A stretch of 47,044 nt of DNA from an uncultured Chlorobiaceae bacterium (GTDB taxonomy: Bacteria > Bacteroidota > Chlorobiia > Chlorobiales > Chlorobiaceae). The stretch lies in NCBI GenBank assembly GCA_903836465.1, contig CAILRB010000008.1, positions 1 through 47,044 on the forward strand, written 5' to 3'. Made by a program: the position numbers and the translations under genes. This document shows positions 1 through 6,194 of this stretch, piece after piece. Each line of letters begins with the position of its first letter. Within the stretch, counting starts at the first letter, position 1. The notes under the pieces were generated by a model that saw only the letters and a program-made list of their open reading frames with translations, had not been told where the DNA came from and did not search any database.

Positions 1-1658
1 ATATCATTCGGCTCATTGAGCAGCTTCAGTGTCTCAATATCGTAGTCGTCAGCATCATCAATAGTGGTAATAAAGATCAGTCCGGCATCGGTGAGAATAC
101 GGGCAAGCTCTCCGATTCTTCTCAACCGCTCCCCTGCGCTATCTGTATTGGAACCAAGATCGGCATCAAGCCCGCGATCAATGTTGGCCACTCCGAGGTA
201 ATAGACGTTCATGCCATTGTGAAAAAGCCCCTGCTCAAGCGCTTTCGCCACCGCCCGTTTACCGGTGCCAGGAACTCCGGTAAAGACGATAAATTTTGCC
301 CGGTGGCAATTTACCTCTGCCCGCTGTTCTGCACGGACAAGACCAGCTTCCCAGTTATGTTCTCGATCCTTGATATGTTTCTGCAAAAGGGTCTCTCCGG
401 AGGAAAGGTTCTCAACCACAACACCACCACCGGCAATTTCATAGTTATCGACTATAACAAACCGCCCCGTGGTTTCACTGGCAGCAGTCGTATCAAAAGC
501 AATCGAACGAGAGGTTTCAAGAATACACTCCCCAACGTCACGACAGTCAATCTGCTGCTTGCATTTACTGGAGGTCAGATCAGAGGCATCGAGCGTATTG
601 CAGATCTCCGCAAGCTTGACCGTTGCACGAGCCGAGCCGAGCTTGAGTTTGTACTCCTTGTTACGAATCATCGGCGCACGGCCAACCCAGAAAATATTCA
701 CCCTGAAACGGCTGCCGACCTCCGGCAGAGGTTCATTGGGCTTTACCATAAGTTCACCGGGGCGCACATAGATCTGTGTCGTAAGGGTAAATCCTGAAGC
801 ATCTCCCGCTGAGGCCTGCTGTTTTTGGGCCGTATTGAACGATTCGACCGACTGGATGGTCGATTGTTTCCCCGAGGGAAGAAAAAGCACCTCATCACCG
901 ACCCGCACCGTTCCGGCAGCAACAGTCCCGACAACAATTCGACGGTCGTCATTGCTGCGGGTAAACTTGTAGATATCCTGAACCGGAAAACGAAAGGGCT
1001 TGTCCTGAAGCTCCTTGTCACTGATGAACTGGTCAAGCTGCTCAAGCACCGTAAATCCCTTGTACCATGGCATCCGTTCAGAAAGAGAGGCAATATTGTC
1101 CCCCTCGCGGGCGCTGACAGGTATAAAGCTGACCGGCGTCACGTTGATCCGGGCAAGAAAGGCGGTGTAGTCGGCCTTCAGCTTTTCAAAAACCTCTTCG
1201 CTGAAGTCCACAAGATCCATTTTGTTGGCCAGCACCGTCACCTGCTTGACACCAAGCATTGCAACCATCTGGCCATGCCGCTTTGAGTTCTCCTTGATAC
1301 CCTCGTCTGCATCAATCACAAGCAGCGCCGAATCTGCCCGAGAGGCGCCGGTAATCATGTTTTTCAGAAACTCGATATGGCCAGGAGCATCAATAATGAT
1401 GTAGTCACGAGCTGCTGTTTTAAAAAAGCAACGGGCCATATCAATGGTGATCCCCTGCGCCTGCTCATCCTTGAGCGCATCAAGCAGAAACGCATATTCA
1501 AAAGGCTTTGAATTCCTTCGGCAGCTCTCTCTTACCGCTTCAAGCTTGCCCTGCGGCAAGGAGCCTGTATCTGCAAGCAGCCTGCCAATCACCGTGCTTT
1601 TCCCATGATCAACATGACCAACTATAACAATATTCATTTGCGCCCGTCCACTACTCAT
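1..1658 (-). CDS. cysN: Sulfate adenylyltransferase large subunit CysN fused to a CysC-like kinase domain (partial, 3' end outside window)
   Basis: GTPase subunit of ATP sulfurylase: with CysD it makes adenosine 5'-phosphosulfate (APS) from sulfate and ATP in the cytoplasm. About 552 codons are visible, open to the window edge. Residues 14-21 read GHVDHGKS (Walker A), 90-94 DAPGH (G3), followed by an NKMD motif, all typical of CysN. From about residue 455 a CysC-like domain follows, but its Walker A (around 461-468) reads GVPGTGKR, with Arg where Ser/Thr is expected, and the usual DGDN-type motif is replaced by GVAN. The kinase half may therefore be inactive; this fits a pathway that reduces APS directly. 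Start at 1658 chosen; an in-frame ATG at 1637 ([12 protein letters not shown]) is equally possible. Last gene of the operon, 51 bp after cysD. Confidence 0.95.
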
Positions 1659-1709: not shown

Positions 1710-2588
1710 CTACATATACCCGTCACGCCGAAGCGTCTCAAGTCCCCCGTCTTCACTGTCCTGTGCGCGCCCTGATCGCTCGGCAATGTCCGAAAACTTG
1801 CCGCTTTTGAGTTCCTCAATTATCTCCGGAACCGTTTGCGCATCCGACGTGACCGGATTAGTACAGGGATAACAGCCAAGGGAACGATAGCGAATACCTT
1901 CGCCCTGATTAAAGTAGAGCGAAACGACTGGAATCTTTTCCCGTTCGATATACTCCCAGATGTTCTGCTCAGTCCAGTCAAGCAGGGGGTGAATGCGCAC
2001 ATGGGTTCCTGGTGCAAAATCGGTCTTGAACTGGTTCCAAAATTCTGGCGGTTGGTCGCCTACATCCCAGACATTGTCTTTGTCGCGAGGTGAAAAATAT
2101 CTCTCTTTTGAACGGCTCCCCTCCTCATCAGCCCGGACACCAACAATAACGCCAGTATAGGGCTCTCTCCCCTCATCAACAACATACTTCCGCTGCTCGT
2201 GATCCATCCTGTACCGAGGCCACTCACCCGAAAGAGTATTTTTCAATGCTTCACTTTTAAGGTATTTGCAGCAGGTAAGGCGGTCGGTCTTACCATCAGG
2301 AAACGTAAGCTTCTCTGCCAACGCTTCAGTATTCTGACCATAGATCATGTTCAGGTTCCACTCAAGGGCAAAGCGGTCGCGATACTCAATCATCTCAGGA
2401 ATCTTGAAGTGGGTATCAATATGGACCAACGGAATGGGGACGTGTCCGAAAAATGCCTTCCGGGCAAGCCAGAGCATCACGGTACTATCCTTGCCGATTG
2501 ACCAGAGCATACAGAGGCTTTTAAATTCACGGTAGGCTTCGCGAAGAATGTAAACGCTCTGTGCCTCAAGTTTGTCAAGATGATCCAT
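1710..2588 (-). CDS. cysD: Sulfate adenylyltransferase small subunit CysD
   Basis: Catalytic subunit of ATP sulfurylase: it activates sulfate to APS using energy from GTP hydrolysis by CysN. It has 292 aa, close to the family's roughly 300. The PP-loop of the ATP-pyrophosphatase fold is SIGKDS at residues 30-35 (SGGKDS is more common). The C-terminal part carries [11 protein letters not shown] and an ending of the ERxGRAxD...RRDGYM type, both characteristic of CysD. It sits between cysH (21 bp upstream) and cysN (51 bp downstream) on the same strand, so co-transcription is very likely. No strong ribosome binding site is visible; the start matches the usual MDHL-type CysD N-terminus. Confidence 0.96.
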
Positions 2589-2609: not shown

Positions 2610-3323
2610 TTACAATGGTTTTCGGTGCAGGCCGCACTCTTTGTGTTCCGGAATTTCCCACCACCAGCGTCCTGCGCGAATATCCTCTCCAGGCTTGATC
2701 GCCCTCGTACAGGGAGCACACCCGATACTGGGGTATCCTTGATCATGAAGGGCATTGACGGGGACATTATGTTTTTGGATATATTCCCAGAGCGTTGTTT
2801 CCGTCACCTCTGCAAGTGGATTGACTTTATAGAGTCCAAACGACTCATCCCACTCCACCGGGGCTATGGCGGTTCTGGTGACTGACTGTTCACGTCGTAA
2901 CCCGCATATCCATCCTTTCAGCGTTGAAAGCTTCTTGGCAAGCGGCTGCACTTTTCGGATTCGGCAGCACTCCCGACGCAGTTCGACACTCTCATAAAAG
3001 AGGTTTGCTCCGTAACGAGTCTGCATGGCTTCAACCTCAACGGTTTCCGGAAAAAGCACCTCAATCGAAATACCATACCGCTTTCGAGTAGCATCAAGGA
3101 TATCGTAGGTCTCTTGCGGGAGCCTTCCGGTATCAAGAGTAAAGAGCGGTATCGGCAACTTCTCCTTTTCAAGTATGTCAGTAATCACCTGATCCTCCGC
3201 GCCAAAACTTGAGGCAAAGGCACAATCGCCTGCATCAAAAAAAGCCGCAGCCCAACACAGAATCTCTTCCGGTGATTTACCGGAGAGATCGTTACTCAAT
3301 TTTCTGACGTCCTCCCTGCTCAT
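2610..3323 (-). CDS. cysH: Assimilatory adenylyl-sulfate (APS) reductase CysH
   Basis: Reduces APS to sulfite with thioredoxin-type electrons. It has 237 aa. The nucleotide-binding P-loop region is ASSFGAEDQ (37-45). Cys119-Cys120 and Cys202-x2-Cys205 form the CC...CxxC signature of the [4Fe-4S] cluster that separates APS reductases from cluster-free PAPS reductases; the catalytic Cys230 lies in KECGLH near the C-terminus, and the WWWE stretch precedes it. Because this enzyme uses APS, no functional APS kinase is required, in line with the degenerate CysC part of the downstream CysN. It lies 48 bp after the sulfite reductase gene and 21 bp before cysD. Confidence 0.95.
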   Translation of the reverse strand: MSREDVRKLSNDLSGKSPEEILCWAAAFFDAGDCAFASSFGAEDQVITDILEKEKLPIPLFTLDTGRLPQETYDILDATRKRYGISIEVLFPETVEVEAMQTRYGANLFYESVELRRECCRIRKVQPLAKKLSTLKGWICGLRREQSVTRTAIAPVEWDESFGLYKVNPLAEVTETTLWEYIQKHNVPVNALHDQGYPSIGCAPCTRAIKPGEDIRAGRWWWEIPEHKECGLHRKPL

Positions 3324-3371: not shown

Positions 3372-4262
3372 TCAAGTGGTACCAAGAATTTCAGCCCGAA
3401 CCGTTTCAATCCCGATACGGTCAATCGTATGTCCGAAACGCTCTTTTTTCTTGCCATGTTTCCGGTAACAGGTTAGTGCTTTCTGAATCAGATCGTAGAG
3501 TTCATCCTCACTCTCAACCAGTTTCTTGAGTACGGTAGCGAAACGGGGTATTTTTCCCATCGTGCCGCCAATAAAAAGGGTGTATCCCTGCCTGCCGATA
3601 ACCCAGGCTTCTCCCGGGCAGTGCTGGGTACAAACGCTACAATTGATGCAGCTCTCCTGATCAATAGTGTAACGGTATGCCCTTTTGCCATTACTGCCAC
3701 TCTCCTGGCGCTCGATGGCTTTGGCTGGGCAATGGTTAAGACAGAGCTTACAATCACAACAGGACGCCGACACCCATTCCGGCTCAATGGCGCCCCTGAC
3801 GCCAATATCGTTTTCATTTGCCTTGGTGCAGTTATTGGCGCAACCTGTTACCGCCATCTTGAATTTTCCCGGCGCCTCCAGATTGAAAAACCGTGTATCA
3901 AGCTCGCGTGCAATCTTTTTTGTATCAATGCTTCCAAATTTACAGGTCGCTTCTCCAGGACAGGCAACAATCACCCGGACTCGGGTACCTGATGCTCCCA
4001 TTTCAACTCCTGCAACCTGCAGAACTCGCCGGGCATTTTCGAGATTGTCATGATGAACATTATGGATTTCCATCCCCTGACGCGTAGAAAGATGCACAAC
4101 ACCCCGGCCATACTTTTCAGCAACCAATGCAATACATGCCAGTTGTGTTGCCGTCAAATCACCCGCAACGGCCTTAAGACGAATGAAATAATAGTCGTGC
4201 TGCTTCTGACGTATCATTCCCTCCCTGTTCAAGGGAGCCACAACAAGCGCGGGTTCCACCAT
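3372..4262 (-). CDS. Small siroheme sulfite reductase with a two-cluster ferredoxin domain
   Basis: Probable assimilatory sulfite reductase (sulfite to sulfide), first protein gene of the sulfate assimilation operon. It has 296 aa. The siroheme/[4Fe-4S] binding signature is C101-x5-C107 ... C141-x3-C145 (CPGEATC and CANNC). Between this and the C-terminal half are eight further Cys in ferredoxin spacing (CDCKLCLNHCP near 169-179 and CINCSVCTQHCP at 205-216), so electrons probably come from ferredoxin. The ferredoxin insert resembles AsrC/Fsr-type and low-molecular-weight sulfite reductases rather than the roughly 570-aa CysI. A nitrite substrate cannot be excluded, but the operon argues for sulfite. 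The ATG at 4262 has GGAGAG only 2 nt away; the adjacent GTG at 4259 would have better spacing. Confidence 0.88.
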   Translation of the reverse strand: MVEPALVVAPLNREGMIRQKQHDYYFIRLKAVAGDLTATQLACIALVAEKYGRGVVHLSTRQGMEIHNVHHDNLENARRVLQVAGVEMGASGTRVRVIVACPGEATCKFGSIDTKKIARELDTRFFNLEAPGKFKMAVTGCANNCTKANENDIGVRGAIEPEWVSASCCDCKLCLNHCPAKAIERQESGSNGKRAYRYTIDQESCINCSVCTQHCPGEAWVIGRQGYTLFIGGTMGKIPRFATVLKKLVESEDELYDLIQKALTCYRKHGKKKERFGHTIDRIGIETVRAEILGTT

Positions 4263-4347: not shown

Positions 4348-4363
4348 ATTAACAATCGTTAAT
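4348..4363. promoter_or_regulatory. Perfect 6-bp dyad upstream of the sulfite reductase operon
   Basis: ATTAAC and GTTAAT are perfect inverted arms around a 4-bp spacer (AATC), about 85 bp upstream of the sulfite reductase start. It may be an operator or a small RNA hairpin in the leader. It differs from the ATACC/GGTAT dyad found 40 bp further upstream. Short AT-rich dyads arise by chance, so confidence is low. Confidence 0.3.
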
Positions 4364-4402
4364 AAACACCATCATAAACCACATCTCCAACCTTGTCTCA
4401 AG

Positions 4403-4423
4403 AAATACCGCAAATATGGTATA
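4403..4423. promoter_or_regulatory. Candidate operator (ATACC-N8-GGTAT) of the sulfate assimilation operon
   Basis: Inverted arms ATACC (4405-4409) and GGTAT (4418-4422) flank an 8-bp spacer, about 140 bp upstream of the sulfite reductase start on the minus strand. The same dyad with identical spacing occurs at 6174-6194 upstream of the porin gene; over 21 bp only the two spacer positions 4411-4412 differ. Two near-identical long sites in front of a sulfur operon and a porin suggest one transcription factor for both. The identity of the regulator is unknown. Confidence 0.6.
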
Positions 4424-4439
4424 GAGGAAAGACAAAAAA

Positions 4440-4503
4440 AACATCCGGAAGAGACCGAAAAAAAATGCACCCGACAACACTTTTCTTCACTCTTCCGGAT
4501 GTT
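4440..4503 (-). terminator. 14-bp inverted repeat downstream of tRNA-Cys (possible terminator or processing stem)
   Basis: The arms at 4440-4453 (AACATCCGGAAGAG) and 4490-4503 are perfect reverse complements separated by 36 nt. They lie directly behind the 3' end of the minus-strand tRNA-Cys, and an A-run on the plus strand (4434-4441) gives a U-run after the stem in the minus-strand transcript. This could end tRNA transcription before the sulfite reductase promoter. A third partial copy (AACATCCGGA) sits at 4614-4623 just upstream of the tRNA, so the tRNA is framed by inverted copies. Confidence 0.45.
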
Positions 4504-4533
4504 CGGAGGAACATTATGACTTGATTCAGACCG

Positions 4534-4607
4534 AGGCGATGACAAGATTCGAACTTGTGAAAAAGAGTTTTGCAGACCCTTGGCTTAGACCACTCACCCA
4601 CATCGCC
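4534..4607 (-). tRNA. tRNA-Cys (anticodon GCA)
   Basis: Read on the minus strand, the acceptor arms GGCGATG and CATCGCC pair perfectly. The anticodon loop is CTGCAAA with anticodon GCA, the T-arm is ACAAG-TTCGAAT-CTTGT, and the discriminator base is U73, the known identity base of tRNA-Cys. Length is 74 nt including the discriminator; the 3' CCA is not encoded. It stands immediately upstream of, and on the same strand as, the sulfate assimilation operon that supplies sulfide for cysteine. Confidence 0.93.
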
Positions 4608-4710
4608 AGAAAAAACATCCGGACACTTTTGAATAAGATGCACACACTACACCTACGGAAGTTCCTTCCATAACTTCAACCATAAATGCCCGGATGCCGG
4701 AGAACAACCG

Positions 4711-5862
4711 TTAGAAGGCTATTGTTGCCCAAAGTTCTGAACGCAGGCGACTGGTATTCACATCGGCCGAGCCAACTGAATGATCACTTGTCGTCAAGTA
4801 ACGCACGGTTGGCTGAATGCTTAACTTTCCTGCCGGTATTTTATATTGTGCCCAGATAAAGTTATTGGTGTACTTGTGAGTCGTGCTGGTAGACTTGTCG
4901 GTTGTTTTGTTATAATCATACCATGCCAAAAATGGGCCGTACTCACCTTTGATTCTAAAGAGATAACCTGAATAATCGACATTTGCTCCGGCAGTTGCAT
5001 AGTTTGCACTGCTGGGAGTTGTACCATGGCCACTGGTACGAAATCCACTGAAACCAAGTTTCACATCACCAACAGGCACACTCGCATTTGTACCAAAAGT
5101 AAACGGTCTGATACCCTGATGAAATGGAAGATTTGTCGAGTAGGTGGTCTGAGTAACCGTATCGTGCTGGTTCAGGGCAGTAAGTACCTGTGGTTCAAGT
5201 GTAACGTCTCCGATCTTGGTTTTATAGTTCAAAACGAACACATAACCGTCGTTCAGAAGGCCATCACCTGTTCCGGGTGTATCTTGCTTTGAGAGATTGT
5301 CAAATACTCCAATCACTGCATTCAAGTCACCTGAACCAATTTTAGTCCCGTAATTCACACCAAAAAGCCTGTCATTATTAAATGTTGTTGTCGGTACATC
5401 AAGTGGATTTTTGGGATAGAGGTGAATATCAAAAGCCGGATTATTGGTTGAGTTGAGCGGAAGACGACCCAAAAGGTAATGACTTTCTCCATAATTACGA
5501 CCAAAATAGAGCTGTGAAAAACCGATAGTATATAATTCAGTGTTTCCATAGCCAACAGTTTGCCAACCGCCGCCGCCGCCAATTTTAGCGGTCGACCCAG
5601 CACCGCCACTACCTGAAAAGCCGGGAGCTTCATTGCTGATCAGCGCCCTGAAAAGATAGCCGTCCTCAAAATCACCAGCCACGTTCAGTCGTGCACGGTA
5701 CTGATAATATAAATTGTCCGGTGAGGTGCTTTGATGCTCCGCATCGAAAGCTTCATCTCTCACTCGAACAGAGACGTCGCCACTAAACTTCAGCTCAGCC
5801 GAAGCCGGTGATGCGTATGAAAGTACTGCAAACATAGCAGCAAGCGATAACATCCTTTTCAT
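4711..5862 (-). CDS. Outer membrane porin (putative, Gram-negative beta-barrel)
   Basis: A 383-aa protein with a clear signal peptide (MKRMLSLAAMFAVLSYASPASA, about 22 residues) followed by ELKFSGDVSVRVRDE, a typical first beta-strand. The rest alternates short amphipathic strands with Gly/Asn/Thr-rich loops (several YFGRNYGE- or LFGVNYGTK-like segments) and ends with SELWATIAF, i.e. a terminal Phe as recognised by the BAM machinery. The open frame extends upstream to 6066, but the signal peptide places the start at 5862. The upstream region holds an operator-like dyad shared with the sulfite reductase operon and an attenuator-like leader, so expression may follow sulfur supply. The transported solute cannot be told from sequence; sulfate or organosulfur uptake is a guess from context. 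Confidence 0.85.
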   Translation of the reverse strand: MKRMLSLAAMFAVLSYASPASAELKFSGDVSVRVRDEAFDAEHQSTSPDNLYYQYRARLNVAGDFEDGYLFRALISNEAPGFSGSGGAGSTAKIGGGGGWQTVGYGNTELYTIGFSQLYFGRNYGESHYLLGRLPLNSTNNPAFDIHLYPKNPLDVPTTTFNNDRLFGVNYGTKIGSGDLNAVIGVFDNLSKQDTPGTGDGLLNDGYVFVLNYKTKIGDVTLEPQVLTALNQHDTVTQTTYSTNLPFHQGIRPFTFGTNASVPVGDVKLGFSGFRTSGHGTTPSSANYATAGANVDYSGYLFRIKGEYGPFLAWYDYNKTTDKSTSTTHKYTNNFIWAQYKIPAGKLSIQPTVRYLTTSDHSVGSADVNTSRLRSELWATIAF

Positions 5863-5927
5863 TTCATTTTCCCTTTTATTAGTTGTTATGTTGTGTGTTC
5901 TTGTTGACAAAAAATTCCTGTAAATAG

Positions 5928-5962
5928 AAAAAGCCAGCTTTTTAAAACGAAAAAGCTGGCTT
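5928..5962 (-). terminator. Intrinsic terminator hairpin inside the porin leader
   Basis: On the minus strand a perfect 13-bp stem (AAGCCAGCTTTTT / AAAAAGCTGGCTT; plus-strand arms 5950-5962 and 5931-5943) closes a 6-nt loop (CGTTTT) and is followed by further U residues. It lies 66 bp before the porin start codon. No other minus-strand gene exists upstream for more than 1 kb, so it is best explained as an attenuator of the porin itself. Confidence 0.65.
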
Positions 5963-6023
5963 CGAGAGTATAATCCACCCTGAAAAGCAGGGGCATTATG
6001 TCGATAATCGGCTTTTCCGTTTT
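5931..6023 (-). promoter_or_regulatory. Candidate transcription attenuator / riboswitch-like leader of the porin gene
   Basis: Upstream of the terminator stem, the minus-strand segment AAAACGGAAAAGC (plus 6011-6023) can pair over 13 positions, with one G-U, with GCTTTTTCGTTTT (plus 5944-5956), which is the 5' half plus loop of the terminator. The two pairings exclude each other, as in antiterminator/terminator switches. Between them sits a further hairpin (plus 5970-5999; outer arms ATAAT/ATTAT, inner arms CCCTG/CAGGG). I recognise no known riboswitch class. A protein- or small-molecule-controlled switch is inferred, not shown. Confidence 0.5.
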
Positions 6024-6173
6024 TCAACGTCAATCCAGAGACAACAACCACAATTGTGCCTGCCACTGATAACGCTGTTATATTTCAAAAATTGATAGTT
6101 CATTTGAGTAACGTTTGATTTACAGGTGTCAATAAAGCTCTATATCATCATAAAAAGCAAGCATATACCATAA

Positions 6174-6194
6174 AAATACCGTTAATATGGTATA
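6174..6194. promoter_or_regulatory. Candidate operator (ATACC-N8-GGTAT) upstream of the porin
   Basis: Arms ATACC (6176-6180) and GGTAT (6189-6193) with an 8-bp spacer, about 310 bp upstream of the porin start and 150 bp upstream of the leader switch. It matches the site at 4403-4423 at 19 of 21 positions. A further half-site (ATACC at 6166-6170, ten bases before the first arm) gives a third contact on one side. Confidence 0.6.

Follow-up and report, generated by a model that had tools for sequence, protein, structure and literature searches.

Among the closest described systems are the CysB and CymR cysteine regulons, which, like the system described here, place sulfate uptake, sulfate reduction and cysK under coordinate control. 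CysB is a LysR protein and CymR an Rrf2 protein, each acting at other sites, whereas the Chlorobium candidate is a NarL-type response regulator. Polycysteine leader ORFs form a second point of comparison, and were reportedly recognised as cysteine-responsive attenuators by Canestrari in 2020. In the cys and cbs operons of mycobacteria and other Actinobacteria, as in Chlorobium, a short ORF with Cys codons precedes sulfur or cysteine genes (PMC1262725). There, however, no conserved terminator was found and Rho has been proposed to act, whereas the Chlorobium leaders have an intrinsic terminator and, before the porin, a covarying predicted antiterminator, stand before a porin and a sulfate transporter, and belong to another phylum. 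A leader ORF with tandem Cys codons and an intrinsic terminator is also found in uORFC-8-2, upstream of cysS in Rhodobacterales, but this element controls a cysteinyl-tRNA synthetase in alphaproteobacteria and has no tie to a sulfur-gene operator (PMC8632094). Ribosome-mediated amino-acid attenuation in general was assigned, in a survey of 2010, to Proteobacteria, Actinobacteria and Firmicutes (PMC2965389).

On the side of the operator, the closest known sites are those of Escherichia coli NarL, which consist of inverted heptamers two bases apart, as in the engineered site TACCCCTAAAGGGGTA (PMC4549865). NarL and NarP are response regulators with a GerE/LuxR helix-turn-helix (HTH), like the Chlorobium candidate, and TACCCCTAAAGGGGTA also reads TACC-N8-GGTA (PMC4549865). 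They differ in that the Chlorobium targets serve the assimilation of sulfur and the synthesis of cysteine, the regulator gene has no kinase beside it, and the middle bases are not the same (ATA..TAT). NarL-type regulators and classical attenuation are already known; the pathway, the phylum and the combination would be new. In the open-licence literature we found no description of a regulator of sulfate assimilation in Chlorobi, of polycysteine leaders in Chlorobi, or of an earlier two-tier system of this kind, which is weak evidence of absence. We consider it likely, from comparison of sequences, that Chlorobiaceae have a sulfur-starvation regulon, in which activation by a NarL-type protein would be combined with attenuation sensing cysteine tRNA at the porin and the sulfate transporter.

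A dyad upstream of sulfur genes and a porin gene

The window is the whole stretch of DNA that was analysed, 47,044 nucleotides of a contig from an uncultured Chlorobiaceae bacterium, and the features of the locus are collected in Table 1. A previous sequence-only reading had pointed to two sites in it that agree at 19 of 21 positions, and direct comparison bears this out: site 1 (4403-4423) is AAATACCGCAAATATGGTATA and site 2 (6174-6194) is AAATACCGTTAATATGGTATA. The inverted arms ATACC and GGTAT are present 8 bp apart at both sites, as had been described, but the spacer, which had been called identical, is so only in length, since two bases differ (GCAAATAT vs GTTAATAT). Both sites are intergenic. 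Each lies upstream of a minus-strand unit, in line with that reading, and a search of the whole window with ATACCNNNNATATGGTAT returned these two as the sole matches with 0 mismatches.

Table 1. Coordinates of the dyads, leader elements and genes of the locus in the window
Feature	Position	Strand	Description
Dyad 1	4405..4422	-	ATACCATATTTGCGGTAT on gene strand; 7-2-7 core TACC-N8-GGTA; 142 bp upstream of sir
Dyad 2	6176..6193	-	ATACCATATTAACGGTAT on gene strand; 313 bp upstream of porin
Third half-site TATGGTA	6166..6172	-	Direct repeat, one helical turn after dyad 2
Putative porin promoter	6131..6160	-	-35-like TTGCTT 6155-6160, -10-like TTTATT 6131-6136, spacing 18 bp; predicted
Leader-peptide ORF	5996..6103	-	35 codons, MNYQFLKYNSVISGRHNCGCCLWIDVEKRKSRLST; between dyad 2 and porin
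Control codons TGT-GGT-TGT-TGT	6041..6052	-	Cys-Gly-Cys-Cys
Segment 2, AAAAACGGAAAAGCC	6010..6024	-	Predicted antiterminator partner of terminator 5' arm; own pairing -15.0 kcal/mol
Intrinsic terminator of leader	5930..5963	-	14-bp stem, then U-rich tract; fold z -5.5
Sulfur-regulon porin	4711..5862	-	383 aa; beta-barrel porin fold
tRNA-Cys(GCA)	4533..4607	-	Between porin and sir; only match to its sequence in the assembly
Strong terminator hairpin after tRNA-Cys	4439..4502	-	z -7.0; separates tRNA-Cys from dyad 1
Putative sir operon promoter	4361..4390	-	TTGGAG 4385-4390, TTTATT 4361-4366, spacing 18 bp; predicted from conserved spacing
sir, sulfite-reductase-type hemoprotein	3372..4262	-	NIR_SIR and 4Fe-4S; Pfam domains from relatives L032, L043, L055
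cysH, APS/PAPS reductase	2610..3323	-	
cysD, sulfate adenylyltransferase small subunit	1710..2588	-	
cysN(C), GTPase subunit	1..1636	-	Contig end cuts gene; identity from EF-Tu-like GTPase start and gene order

The AlphaFold model of the porin is of low confidence (pLDDT 58.6) and forms a barrel with clear matches to general and anion-selective porins. The porin has a paralogue, and porin relatives are present in all 86 genomes of the family, the dyad-linked copy occurring together with the regulator described below. A tRNA-Cys gene follows the dyad-linked porin in several relatives too; in the window, a terminator-like hairpin (~4613-4697) separates the two.

When all 107 contigs of the assembly (2.77 Mb) are searched, ATACCGNNAATATGGTAT has three exact matches and one match with 1 mismatch. 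The third exact match lies upstream of a sulfate-binding-protein gene heading sbp-cysT-cysW-cysA, so that all three exact dyads of the genome precede units of sulfur uptake or assimilation (sir-cysH-cysD-cysNC, the porin and sbp-cysTWA). The 1-mismatch match and its counterparts in relatives were set aside, as they are conserved coding sequence inside a kinase-like ORF. Across 65 Chlorobium genomes, 331 dyads were counted at ≤1 mismatch, against 41 for a reversed-pattern control, and the genes that recur downstream are sir, sbp, cysK and one of the porin paralogues. The distances to these genes, taken from 135 fetched sites, are steady: ~95-190 bp for sir, 297-320 for the porin, ~270-290 for sbp and mostly 85-105 for cysK, shorter apparent distances being artefacts of the ORF start or second paralogues. 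In the 98 core sites neither TACC nor GGTA varies, save for a few porin sites with TCCC (second base), and the consensus is ATACCATATTTAYGGTAT, although collecting the site sets at ≤2 mismatches favours a sharp consensus. In porin and sbp promoters it is followed by the third half-site TATGGTA.

These results bear on one alternative, in which the dyads would be copies of a dispersed repeat, or alike by chance, and of no regulatory meaning. Some matches do fall inside ORFs, as in the kinase gene, but the excess over the control, the recurrent targets, the nearly invariant half-sites and the fixed distances already contradict this explanation, which we regard as having practically no chance of being correct. 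The match had been thought to exceed chance, and to join sulfur assimilation with the porin through a shared site, and the genus comparison supports both views: rather than being scattered at random, lying inside genes or being lost in relatives, the sites are intergenic and kept at steady distances in many of them. The dyad and its targets are shown at the level of comparative sequence analysis.

In genomes rich in sites, the dyad also stands before genes of NMT1/SsuA-like binding proteins (sulfonate uptake), alkylsulfatase-like proteins and OsmC, as well as before a second cysK, radical-SAM proteins and a further porin family. The radical-SAM proteins behind the dyad are of the uncharacterised variant type NF045502, and recur in L101:623-1870, L110, L127, L131 and L169. 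Two further placements were observed: a near-consensus dyad, ATACCGCATTTATGGTAT, at ~105-118 bp from the RNase HII gene that follows it (L115, L149, L164), with no apparent link to sulfur, and a dyad between divergent genes of Nramp-type and MFS-type transporters (L093, L100, L133, L150), with no obvious sulfur role.

A candidate NarL-type regulator beside cysK

Directly before the cysK dyad lies the gene of a 217-aa protein, in which a domain search finds a GerE HTH and a receiver. In most genomes its stop codon is 2-4 bp from the dyad, and the gene order is metY-REG-[dyad]-cysK-cysE (REG being the regulator), with further sulfur genes beyond. The C-terminal GerE HTH (PF00196) scores above its cut-off, at 55.6 bits, and the receiver, whose Response_reg score is just under the cut-off (27.6 vs 30.2 bits), has the phospho-acceptor Asp and the Lys. 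D14, D58 and K108 are found in all 59 regulator sequences (59/59), position 15, usually acidic, is mostly Thr, and among the 59 the recognition-helix region, SFHTVMTHRKNIFRKL, hardly varies. The protein matches response regulators of solved structure over nearly its full length, and by the NCBIfam equivalog cut-offs it is an ortholog of neither NarL (51 of 250 bits) nor NarP (65 of 343). No kinase gene was found adjacent to it.

The regulator is present in 50 of the 65 genomes, a 51st match being a weak fragment. Among genomes at least 90% complete, those with the regulator have a mean of 6.6 sites (n=39) and those without it 0.7 (n=10; Mann-Whitney p 8e-6). It is also associated with the presence of sir (Fisher, p 1e-5) and of sbp (p 4e-7), p-values that overstate the evidence because related genomes are treated as independent. 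Only two genomes, both 80-85% complete, have sir or sbp without the regulator; among the 50 genomes with the regulator, some contain only one site and 11 are without sir. Many members of the sister genus share this arrangement of regulator, TACC-N8-GGTA and cysK. The association of regulator and sites is, like the dyad itself, a comparative result.

TACC-N8-GGTA fits the 7-2-7 inverted-heptamer geometry of NarL sites, and binding is predicted on this basis. The dyad is probably an operator bound by this orphan response regulator of the NarL/FixJ type encoded upstream of cysK, an assignment that we infer from the adjacency of the gene, its co-occurrence with the number of sites, the NarL-like half-sites and spacing, and the universal presence of Rrf2 genes; another NarL-type protein could also be the binder. 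The Rrf2 family enters here since the sequence-only reading had likened ATACC-type dyads to IscR- and CymR-like sites, and a repressor of this family, released under sulfur limitation, would be an alternative binder of the dyad. CymR and IscR do control cysteine or Fe-S genes elsewhere, and this genome has two Rrf2 genes. Such genes are found, however, in 65/65 genomes, irrespective of the dyad, whose sites occur mainly where the NarL-type gene is; no Rrf2 gene was seen beside the targets examined, and the 16-bp palindrome TACC-N8-GGTA matches the 7-2-7 sites of NarL. We therefore abandon the Rrf2 attribution as very unlikely, in favour of the NarL-type protein whose gene, beside the cysK dyad, tracks the number of sites.

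The direction of control is suggested by the position of the sites. In most sbp and sir sites, TTGG-type and TTTATT elements are found downstream of the dyad, 17-18 bp apart, their offsets being fixed in 28/31 sbp and 12/18 sir sites and less constant in porin sites. A NarL-type protein bound to the dyad might instead repress when sulfide or cysteine is plentiful, and proteins of this family can act as repressors, for example at E. coli frdA (PMC4549865). The dyad and the third half-site are, however, upstream of the -35-like element and not over the -10 or the start, which is the usual place of an activator, and repression seems unlikely to us. Activation is most likely, judging from dyads that directly precede -35/-10-like elements and are in many cases accompanied by a third half-site.

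Cysteine-rich leader peptides and their terminators

Between site 2 and the porin there is a putative attenuator layer, which was absent from the sequence-only reading. Polycysteine peptides are encoded in 47 of 50 dyad-linked porin and sbp leaders, whereas 3.7% of first-order Markov sequences and 6.9% of random windows qualify in the controls. Among porins alone, qualifying leaders are found in 18/20 with the dyad vs 1/18 without it. The leader peptides of the porin and sulfate-transporter transcripts are 29-36 codons long; in relatives, peptides encoded at an unchanged distance from the dyad have runs of as many as five cysteines, and the sbp leaders also encode Cys-rich peptides, with other sequences. 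Before sir and cysK, leader peptides are absent as a class (1/20 and 0/39). No known riboswitch or RNA family was detected in the leader, only tRNA reaching Rfam gathering scores.

Nearly all leaders have an intrinsic terminator (-8 to -23 kcal/mol), located some 20-35 nt beyond the stop codon of the leader ORF. In almost all porin leaders the Cys run ends 45 nt ahead of the stop, and in most of them the terminator begins ~25-35 nt past it. A segment that lies ~14-20 nt beyond the Cys codons, immediately past the position of a stalled ribosome, pairs with the 5' arm of the terminator. The partners in this pairing of segments 2 and 3 vary by lineage, AAAAACGGAAAAGCC with AGCTTTTTCGTTTT in one case and TATACTGAATACCG with CCGGTTTTCAGTATC in another. 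Shuffles of single leaders gave weak results for the antiterminator individually, a third of the porin leaders falling below 0.05, and we therefore used a cross-pairing test. The porin leaders pair at -14.2 kcal/mol with their own partner vs -11.0 kcal/mol when cross-paired, a difference reached in 0 of 20,000 permutations (p<5e-5). The same test gave p 0.51 for the sbp leaders with the window used, because their terminator arm hardly varies. In the porin leaders, the predicted antiterminator, which would form in mutual exclusion with the terminator, is thus kept by compensatory change while the peptide varies.

These features can be weighed against the proposal that the Cys-rich ORFs have a role other than attenuation, either through the peptide itself, which might for example bind metals or thiols, or through control of translation or of Rho-dependent termination. 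Mycobacterial Cys-rich leader peptides without clear terminators would be a precedent (PMC1262725), but here an intrinsic terminator follows almost every leader ORF at a near-constant distance and the porin 2:3 pairing survives by compensatory changes as the peptide varies, so that this proposal appears improbable. Attenuation is the reading we retain, with the leader peptides, the terminators and the covariation of the porin antiterminator as its comparative support.

Leaders of dyad-linked NMT1/SsuA-like binding proteins (L104, L106:8689) also appear to encode Cys-rich peptides, and attenuation may therefore extend to sulfonate uptake. In the sister genus (L209), a Cys-rich leader ORF, MNRPLYYSNPLSLICSCCCKESRPCIDISGLST, is present even before a porin whose dyad is degenerate.

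A proposed two-tier control of sulfur assimilation

We propose a mechanism in which regulator binding, its signal and attenuation in vivo are deduced from the comparisons above. When sulfur is short, the NarL-type protein would activate sir-cysHDNC, sbp-cysTWA, cysK(E) and the dedicated porin. If charged tRNA-Cys were also scarce, the ribosome would stall on the Cys codons of the leader and, in the porin leaders, segment 2 would pair with the 5' arm of the terminator, allowing transcription to continue. With cysteine plentiful, the ribosome would reach the leader stop, the terminator would form and the uptake genes would be shut off. The uptake genes would therefore be released, beyond the first layer, only if cysteinyl-tRNA is short as well, whereas sir and cysK are proposed to answer to the first layer alone, because they have no leader peptide. 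On balance, we favour the view that this is an undescribed two-tier system, composed of a NarL-type orphan linked to cysK-cysE and of polycysteine attenuation, which would act on the porin and the sulfate transporter and perhaps also on sulfonate uptake; what is apparently the single tRNA-Cys gene lies in the same locus.

Green sulfur bacteria normally live on sulfide. Assimilatory sulfate reduction has, nevertheless, been shown by isotope uptake in iron-oxidising (photoferrotrophic) Chlorobi from sulfur-poor lakes (PMC5498476). The present analysis gives the switch to sulfate assimilation a candidate regulator, a site, target genes and a putative second sensor at the level of RNA. If true, it would widen the known range of ribosome-mediated amino-acid attenuation by a phylum in which we have found no report of it so far, and would mark one of the two porin paralogues as a sulfur-starvation porin.
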